DNA of 64,000 nucleotides, from the NCBI GenBank assembly GCA_014653535.1, contig JACWEK010000002.1, positions 1 to 64,000 on the forward strand, given 5' to 3'. This stretch comes from Pelagibacterales bacterium SAG-MED43. GTDB lineage: Bacteria > Pseudomonadota > Alphaproteobacteria > Pelagibacterales > Pelagibacteraceae. Position numbers and translations under genes: made by a program. The notes beneath the pieces are model-generated. The model saw nothing but the letters and a program-made list of their open reading frames with translations. It was not told the origin of the DNA and made no database searches. Positions 11,478 to 14,706 of the stretch are shown one piece after another (the stretch's first letter is position 1; every line of letters starts with the position of its first letter).

Positions 11478-12968
11478 ATGAAATTATTTTTTATACTTGG
11501 TAATCAATTATTTCCATTAAAATACATAGACCGCTTCAAAAAAGACCATTTATTCTTTATGGCAGAAGATAACGGTTTATGCACTTATGAAAAACATCAT
11601 AAGCAAAAAATACTACTATTCTTATCTTCTATGCGGTCTTATGCAGATAAGCTCAAAAAGAATAAATTTAAGTTAGATTATACAAAAATTGAAGATAAAG
11701 AATTTAAAGATGATTATCTTAAAAAATTAAAAAAAATTATTGATTTTAAAAAAATTAAGGAGATTTCCAGTTTTGAAATTGAAGATAAATTTTTTGAAAA
11801 AAAGATTACTCAATTCTTAAAAAAAGAAAAAATTAATTGGAGTGTTGTTCAAACTCCTATGTTTTTAAATTCAAGGGATGAATTTAAAAATTACTTAGGA
11901 AAATCAAAAAAACCTTTTATGGCGACATTTTATAAAGAAGTTCGAAAAAAATCAGGAATATTGATGGGTGCGGATGGTAATCCAATTGGAGGAAAATGGA
12001 GTTATGATGATGATAATAGAAATAAATTGCCTAAAGATATTTTGATACCAAAATTTCCCAAAATTAAAGAAACTAATCATACAAAAAAATTAAAGCCTAT
12101 CGTTGAAAAATTTTTTAAAGATCATCCAGGTAACACAGAGAACTTTTGGTTAGCAACAGAATTTGATGACATAGTCAAACTCCTAAATTTTTTTATAAAA
12201 GAAAAATCAAATTTGTTTGGTGATTATGAAGATGCAGTAAATCAAAAAGACAACATTTTGTTTCACAGTGCTTTAAGCCCCTACATTAATCTAGGATTAA
12301 TAACTCCTGAGTTAATTATTCAAAAAGTTTTAGATTTTCATAAAAAAAATAAAATAAGAATGAATTCGTTGGAAGGTTATATCCGCCAAATAATTGGTTG
12401 GAGAGAATTTATGAGAGGTATTTATCAAAGTTATTCAGAGGAAATGGAAACTAGAAATTTCTTTAAACAAAATAGAAAAATGAAAAATTCTTGGTATGAA
12501 GGAACTACTGGTCTTCCACCATTAGATTATGCTGTTAAAAACGCAGTTAATTATGGATGGTCTCATCATATTGAAAGGCTAATGATTTTGTCCAACATAA
12601 TGAACCTTTGTGAGATTAAGCCAACAATTGTCTATAAATGGTTTATGGAAATGTTTGTAGATTCATCTGATTGGGTAATGGTTCCAAATGTTTATGGAAT
12701 GGGATTATTTAGTGATGGAGGTATTTTTGCAACTAAACCATATATTTGTGGATCAGCTTATTTTATGAAAATGATGGATTTTAAAAAAGGAGACTGGTGC
12801 AATACAATGGATGGATTATATTGGAGATTTATAGATCGGAATAGAAAATTTTTTTTAACAAATCCAAGACTATCAATGATGGTGAGAATTTTTGATAAAA
12901 TGAAAACGGATAGAAAAAAATTAATTTTATCTGAGGCTGATAAATTTATTAAACAAAATACAATTTAA
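11478..12968 (+). CDS. Cryptochrome/photolyase family protein, deoxyribodipyrimidine photolyase-related (DPRP) type
   Basis: [116 protein letters not shown]. Confidence 0.92.
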
Positions 12969-13099
12969 TGAGAAAAGAAAATTTACCATCTAAAACCTGT
13001 CCAGTTTGTAAAAGGCCTTTTACTTGGAGAAAAAAATGGAAGTTAAATTGGGAAAAAGTTAAATATTGCTCAAATAAATGTTCAAGTAAGAAATATTAG
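12968..13099 (+). CDS. DUF2256 domain-containing small zinc-ribbon-like protein (43 aa)
   Basis: Manual translation [43 protein letters not shown]; start overlaps the photolyase stop codon; CxxC...CxxxC. Not in ORF track (too short). Confidence 0.85.
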
Positions 13100-13203: not shown

Positions 13204-13341
13204 ATGAGTAAAAAAAGAAAAAAATTAAAAAAGAAAAATCTAATGGCAAAATTATTAAGCTCACCAATGTTAAGAAATAAAATAGTAAAAAATAAGAAAA
13301 AAATTTATAATAGAAAAAAGTTAAAATTAGAAAATGAATAA
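13204..13341 (+). CDS. Small highly basic protein (45 aa), unknown function
   Basis: Manual translation MSKKRKKLKKKNLMAKLLSSPMLRNKIVKNKKKIYNRKKLKLENE*; ATGA junction with an in-frame TGA and an 8-bp overlap with the next ORF. Not in ORF track. Confidence 0.55.
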   Translation: MSKKRKKLKKKNLMAKLLSSPMLRNKIVKNKKKIYNRKKLKLENE

Positions 13342-13555
13342 TAAAATTTTTGAATGGGCAGGGGTTATTACTGCAATCTTATATTCATTATTTGTAGCGA
13401 TGAATATTGGTATAGAGTTTTTTGGTTTTTGCTTATTACTTATATCTGCAATCTTAATTGGAATTTGGGCATATAGGGATGGTCATAGAGGAATATTATT
13501 TTTACAATTTTTTTATGCCACAGCTGGAATTATCGGAATGTTTAGGTGGTTTTAA
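13334..13555 (+). CDS. Small membrane protein (73 aa), unknown function
   Basis: Two or three TM segments: EWAGVITAILYSLFVAMNIGIEFFGFCLLLISAILIGIWAYRDGHRGILFLQFFYATAGIIGMFRWF. Confidence 0.65.
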   Translation: MNNKIFEWAGVITAILYSLFVAMNIGIEFFGFCLLLISAILIGIWAYRDGHRGILFLQFFYATAGIIGMFRWF

Positions 13556-13563
13556 TTTGATAT

Positions 13564-14706
13564 TTAATTAAAAGTTGAAATTATTTTAGGAATATAATTC
13601 TTAAAATTAAAAAAACCTTTGTTACAATATTGCCAAGAATATTGATCAAGTGTTCTATATAAAAAATCTAATTTTATATTATTAGAATTTAAATAATCTA
13701 AGTTTTCACCAACAGTCGGATATAATCCAATTATCTGTTCATTTATATTATTAATTTCACTTATATCTAAGAGCTCATAATCGATAGAGTTATTTTTTAA
13801 TCTTTGCTCCTGATCACTAATAAGTAGAGATTTAAATTTTACTACTTTTTCACTTAATTTAATGGACCTATTTTCATTTTTATTTGAAATTATATAAATT
13901 TTTTTAAATTTATTATTCTGAAAATCAGAGGTTTCAAAGGAAAGATTGTTTTCAAAAATTAATAGATTTTTATCTTCAATATTTTGCGGATTATCAAAAT
14001 CTTTTTTTACTATTGAGTAAGTTTTTTCAGATACTTTTGAAGGAGCATTTTCATTTAATTTGATATTATTAAATCGATTATTGGTAAATTTTTTAATATT
14101 CCATTCACTTGCTAAATAATGTTTTCCCTGTGTTTGAACTCCTGCAACCCATCTCCAACCAAGAGTATTTGATGCAGCATCCCCATCGTAAAGATGTTGC
14201 ATAAAAAATTCTGCACCTAATTGCCAAGGTAGTTGAAAAGTAAAAATCCAAATACTAGCAAACCACATTCTTGTGTGGTTATGTAAATAATTGTTTTCCT
14301 TTAGTTCATTTACCCATGAATTAAAGCATTCAATATTTGTTTTACCTTCTATTGTATTTAGATAATTCTTATTATTTCTAAATTCTTTCCTGATTTTACT
14401 TAATTCGATCAAATAATCGGACCAAACATTTGGTCTTAATTCTAACCAACCCTTCCAATATGTTCTCCATAAAACTTCTTGAATAAATTTTTCACTTTTT
14501 GAAAAAGAAAATTTAGATAAAGATTTTTTAATTATCTCTTGTTCATTAATTATTCCATGAGTTATATAAGGAGATAAACAAGAAACATTTGATCTTTTTT
14601 CTGGTCCAAAATCAAAATTCCTTAATTTTGAATATTCGTAGAGATTTTTTTCAATAAACTCGTTTAATTTTTCAATGGCTTTTACCTTTGAACTTTCAAA
14701 TTTCAT
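13564..14706 (-). CDS. Photolyase/cryptochrome-like FAD-binding domain protein, apparently domain-permuted
   Basis: N-terminal half: LSPYITHGIINEQEI, FIQEVLWRTYWKGWLELRP, NNYLHNHTRMWFASIWIF, FFMQHLYDGDAASNTLGWRWVAGVQTQGKHYLAS (photolyase FAD domain). C-terminal half: LLIFENNLSFE..., EQRLKNNSIDYELLD..., FFNFKNYIPKI (resembles a photolyase antenna domain). Confidence 0.85.
   Translation of the reverse strand: MKFESSKVKAIEKLNEFIEKNLYEYSKLRNFDFGPEKRSNVSCLSPYITHGIINEQEIIKKSLSKFSFSKSEKFIQEVLWRTYWKGWLELRPNVWSDYLIELSKIRKEFRNNKNYLNTIEGKTNIECFNSWVNELKENNYLHNHTRMWFASIWIFTFQLPWQLGAEFFMQHLYDGDAASNTLGWRWVAGVQTQGKHYLASEWNIKKFTNNRFNNIKLNENAPSKVSEKTYSIVKKDFDNPQNIEDKNLLIFENNLSFETSDFQNNKFKKIYIISNKNENRSIKLSEKVVKFKSLLISDQEQRLKNNSIDYELLDISEINNINEQIIGLYPTVGENLDYLNSNNIKLDFLYRTLDQYSWQYCNKGFFNFKNYIPKIISTFN

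Follow-up and report, generated by a model that had tools for sequence, protein, structure and literature searches.

A photolyase-like protein of reversed domain order in SAR11 bacteria, very probably a member of the NewPHL class

The window analysed here, a stretch of 64,000 nucleotides from Pelagibacterales bacterium SAG-MED43, encodes a photolyase-like protein that begins with the FAD domain and ends with a separate domain of ~135 residues. Is this order genuine, which protein is it, and where does its last domain come from? A preliminary description of the window proposed a natural circular permutation with an unknown role. The open reading frame (ORF), its coordinates and the motifs quoted there are all as described. 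The ORF has 380 codons and starts with ATG. The relevant features are the following.

13564..14706, minus strand: putative NewPHL-type photolyase gene, 380 aa (ORF, Pfam FAD_binding_7, full-length relatives, tree)
14071..14706, minus strand: predicted N-terminal FAD/catalytic domain, residues 1-212 (FAD_binding_7 match at 74-198; contact residues conserved)
13567..13971, minus strand: predicted C-terminal alpha/beta "Z-domain", residues 246-380, antenna-like (AlphaFold, Foldseek, profile comparison)
11478..12968, plus strand: neighbour gene, PhrB/DPRP-type (prokaryotic 6-4) photolyase, 496 aa (Pfam PF04244, 2e-64)
12968..13099, plus strand: neighbour gene, DUF2256 small protein, 43 aa (Pfam PF10013, 1e-19)

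The Pfam family FAD_binding_7 matches residues 74-198 of the window protein (E 4e-16) with positions 1-127 of its 203-position profile. The coverage is 1-128 in the Ruegeria protein and 2-127 in the Peteryoungia protein, whereas E. coli PhrB is covered at 1-202. In the window protein, the FAD domain is missing its C-terminal third. Photolyase matches in PDB and NCBIfam are confined to about residues 2-209, the PDB sequence matches being photolyases and cryptochromes. No Pfam antenna family matches the protein at any position; PF00875, the N-terminal antenna of class I, is absent from it and was not found in the source genome, which is 53.8% complete. Neither Pfam nor NCBIfam has a model that matches the last 173 residues. 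The database matches and the relatives described below agree on the order proposed earlier, with the FAD domain first and no antenna before it. The reversed domain order of the SAR11 protein is real.

An ordinary photolyase could have been deprived of its antenna by a wrong start, a frameshift or an assembly error, and the source assembly is indeed fragmentary (54 contigs, 53.8% complete). However, the ATG lies only 6 bp past the stop codon of argG, and therefore no missed N-terminal antenna is hidden before the ORF. Moreover, identical architecture and synteny were observed at 80 independent SAR11 loci, argG being present at 79. Thus a start-site or assembly error, the caveat attached to the preliminary description, is ruled out by the argG spacing, the same-length relatives in SAR11 genomes and the syntenic loci, and the chance of an artefact is negligible.

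A survey of SAR11 for the same order, covering the genus and the order, found full-length FAD-first relatives of about 380-390 aa in 25 of 61 genomes. They are 52-91% identical to the window protein and conserved from end to end, including the C-terminal domain. The carriage of full-length genes is patchy: 23 of 37 genomes of the same genus have one, compared to only two of 24 in the sister family. Many of these SAR11-order genomes also contain a photolyase of normal length (about 475-490 aa). None of the viral contigs searched carries a relative.

For the analysis of gene order, 80 loci with relatives were retained from SAR11 single-cell genomes. They contain argG (79/80), IalB (77/80), DUF2256 (72/80) and the PhrB-type photolyase (48/80, as far as the 4-kb flanks reach). 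The gene resides in a conserved UV-repair neighbourhood together with a PhrB-type (6-4) photolyase. In the window, the PhrB-type photolyase gene overlaps at its end with the DUF2256 gene. Its matches at 72 of the 80 related loci suggest that DUF2256 is functionally linked to photorepair. A hydrophobic ORF of 73 aa without a Pfam match (13334-13555, plus strand) lies between the two photolyase genes, as it does at 60 of the 80 loci. Outside SAR11, the NewPHL genes of Ruegeria sp. TM1040 (locus L143, 2971-5573) and Peteryoungia desertarenae (locus L145, 1671-4212) adjoin genes of AarF/ABC1/UbiB kinases; both NewPHL genes are annotated only as "FAD-binding domain-containing protein".

The window protein was mapped residue by residue on E. 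coli PhrB, together with 39 non-redundant rows of alphaproteobacterial NewPHL-type proteins. The CPD contacts E274, W277, N341, M345 and W384 are retained as E77, W80, N143, M147 and W186. The same holds for the FAD contacts Y222, S235, L237 and S238 (Y25, S42, L44, S45) and R344, D372, D374 and N378 (R146, D174, D176, N180). The retained contacts are conserved in all 39 rows, with one exception each at W384 and S235. T234 is replaced by V41, and valine occupies this position in most NewPHLs. W382 and W359 (W184 and W161 in the window protein) are invariant, whereas the equivalent of W306 is absent from 39/39 rows. The third tryptophan of the classical triad is missing, and therefore a dyad of W161 and W184 is left. 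The four-cysteine Fe-S signature was not found in the window protein and its 25 relatives; in these relatives, the only invariant cysteine is C127, and C361 is nearly invariant.

A tree of FAD domains was constructed from 78 rows, including the NewPHL copies of Ruegeria sp. TM1040 (Roseobacteraceae) and Peteryoungia (Rhizobiaceae). A branch with SH-aLRT support of 100% separates the class I rows from the NewPHL-type and Phr4-type rows. The SAR11 rows form one clade (95) on the NewPHL side, alongside the NewPHL of Roseobacteraceae, in a tree where several inner branches have low support and the composition of some SAR11 rows is unusual.

Taken together, the sequence data make it very probable that the SAR11 protein is a NewPHL (short photolyase-like, SPL, Phr7), the proteins of Dinoroseobacter shibae and Methylobacterium mesophilicum being compared by their published descriptions. 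The class was described in 2020, and the SAR11 protein represents the SAR11 branch of a published class. Like NewPHL/SPL (Emmerich et al. 2020; D. shibae, M. mesophilicum) and Phr7 of Prochlorococcus, it has the FAD domain first, the Z-domain last and no N-terminal antenna; it also shares the lack of Fe-S cysteines, the Trp dyad and the conserved asparagine at N5 of FAD. Phr7 consists of an N-terminal FAD domain and a C-terminal Z-domain (PMC9426592). A "mere Trp dyad" is reported for the NewPHL of D. shibae (PMC8948257), matching the dyad of the window family, and NewPHL is listed among the families with the conserved FAD asparagine, N378 (PMC12083526). It differs only in sequence, with about 31-34% full-length identity to named plasmid copies of Alphaproteobacteria, and in the argG neighbourhood of the SAR11 genes. 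The class I CPD photolyase (E. coli PhrB, 1dnp) is similar in the fold of the FAD domain and in the CPD and FAD contacts, but has an N-terminal antenna, a full-length FAD domain and a Trp triad, and is well apart in the tree.

The role need not be called unknown, as it was in the preliminary description: the NewPHL/Phr7 class is reported to consist of single-stranded-DNA CPD photolyases (PMC9426592, PMC13274461). NewPHLs are described there as having inverted topology and single-stranded-DNA CPD repair, and Phr7 as orthologous to the single-stranded-DNA CPD photolyases of D. shibae and M. mesophilicum (PMC9426592). By analogy with the characterised NewPHLs, the substrate of the SAR11 protein is probably single-stranded DNA as well. 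Based on the family and the conserved residues, we infer that the N-terminal helical domain binds FAD. Once excited by blue or UV-A light, reduced FAD would donate an electron; the acceptor would be a cyclobutane pyrimidine dimer that has flipped into the active site. The dimer would then split, and the electron would return to FAD. Photoreduction of FAD would proceed via the Trp dyad (W184, W161) instead of the usual triad. The Z-domain probably substitutes for the helices that the FAD domain has lost, covering and sealing the FAD pocket. Reportedly, Emmerich et al. 2020 (NAR 48:12845) attributed the sealing of the FAD site to the C-terminal domain.

One might suppose that the protein is a cryptochrome-like light sensor or regulator, as the third tryptophan of the classical triad is absent and repair could be redundant: many of the searched genomes have a normal-length photolyase, and the window has a PhrB-type one. 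This is very unlikely, since every CPD-contact residue tested is retained and the gene lies within a conserved DNA-repair neighbourhood. Further, characterised NewPHLs that have a Trp dyad repair CPDs according to published reports (PMC9426592, PMC13274461, PMC8948257).

The FAD-first order of this predicted repair enzyme is shared with Phr4/Phr5 and Phr6 of marine Synechococcus/Cyanobium, described as having inverted order and Fe-S cysteines (PMC9426592). In the tree, FAD domains of the Phr4 type lie with the NewPHL-type rows. However, in Phr4/Phr5 and Phr6 four Fe-S cysteines are present and a photolyase (antenna) domain can be recognised, possibly as a separate gene, whereas the window protein has neither Fe-S cysteines nor an antenna recognisable by Pfam. 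A two-gene inverted photolyase, described in cyanobacteria (PMC9426592), was also observed outside them, at the alphaproteobacterial loci L130, L131, L132, L133 and L135 (e.g. L135, 1399-2193 and 975-1403, minus strand). Here a Phr4-like gene for an FAD-only protein of about 246-300 aa, with a Cys-rich tail in several cases, is closely followed by a Phr5-like gene for a mini-antenna of 130-155 aa, which hhalign relates to the class I antenna at 93.6%.

The origin of the Z-domain is a separate problem. AlphaFold predicts the whole window protein with pLDDT 82. For the isolated C-terminal domain, modelled from a diverse alignment of 22 sequences, pLDDT is 93; in the full model most blocks of this domain have about 84-93. 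The C-terminal domain is modelled as a Rossmann-like alpha/beta domain, with beta strands alternating with helices. A Foldseek search with the whole model finds photolyases via the FAD domain only. The C-terminal domain alone produces no match with E < 0.001, all E-values being above 0.02. Among the matches listed, the highest probabilities and TM-scores belong to the prokaryotic (6-4) photolyases and CryB: 4dja (probability 0.97, TM 0.54, E 0.04), 8ijy (0.92, TM 0.56) and 3zxs (0.92, TM 0.55). The antenna is the sole alpha/beta part of these photolyases and therefore must be the part matched. Malate dehydrogenases, eIF2B and universal stress proteins are listed as well. The antenna-like C-terminal domain of the preliminary description is supported by the predicted fold and by the presence of PhrB/CryB photolyases among the best matches. 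The prokaryotic (6-4) photolyases (Agrobacterium PhrB, 4dja; PF04244), although among the folds nearest to the Z-domain, carry their antenna at the N-terminus, unlike the window protein; one of them is encoded by the separate neighbour gene in the window.

With small alignments, hhalign produced nothing significant for the C-terminal domain (probability under 2%). A signal was seen only when 65 non-redundant C-terminal domains were combined into one profile. This profile aligns in register with both antennas, that of the (6-4) type (116 columns, score 29.8, P 4.8e-4) and that of class I (98 columns, score 28.5, P 9.5e-4), the hhalign probability of the link being weak at 22-32%. The maxima of 100 column shuffles each were 21.3 and 18.7, respectively. 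Between the two accepted antenna families the score is 25.9 and P is 2.9e-3, and the test is therefore calibrated by a known weak homology. Usp, another HUP domain, scored 23.6-24.1 (P about 0.003, 51 columns), and ArgG scored below Usp; the ArgG and ETF decoy sets held some antisense frames and are rough controls. The separate Phr5 protein is a clear antenna homologue (hhalign 93.6%, E 2e-7). As the main bridge between the Z-domain and the antenna it failed: the Z-domain matches Phr5 more weakly (P 0.0065). The profile scores are supportive, though not conclusive, of kinship with the antenna.

The Z-domain is probably a shrunken and relocated relative of the photolyase antenna domain. Tentatively, NewPHL and Phr4/5/6 may all stem from a single inversion of domain order in an ordinary photolyase, the reduced and moved antenna taking the place of the C-terminal helices that the FAD domain has lost. 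The circular permutation suggested earlier is one possible history of this kind; the antenna-like fold and the profile scores speak weakly for it, and no Foldseek E-value reaches 0.001. A literature search for circular permutation of photolyases retrieved nothing relevant. It is also quite conceivable that an unrelated Rossmann/HUP-like domain was fused to a truncated FAD domain, by loss and gain with no permutation; this would concern the origin of the Z-domain and not the NewPHL assignment. The insignificant hhalign results with small alignments (probability under 2%), the Foldseek E-values above 0.02 with malate dehydrogenase, eIF2B and universal stress proteins in the list, and the nearly equal profile score of Usp (P 0.003) are all consistent with such a fusion. 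On the other hand, the two photolyase antenna families are the best profile matches, aligned in register and scoring higher than any of 100 column shuffles, and the match between the accepted antenna families themselves is poorer (P 2.9e-3). The PhrB/CryB photolyases also have the top TM-scores and probabilities among the Foldseek matches listed.

A photolyase of the single-stranded-DNA type is thereby documented in SAR11, among the most abundant bacteria of the surface ocean, beside a (6-4) photolyase. The remote link between the Z-domain and the antenna bears on whether NewPHL/SPL are ancestral to photolyases or were derived by domain shuffling. If a single inversion did occur, it would count against NewPHLs as primitive, antenna-less ancestors of the family.
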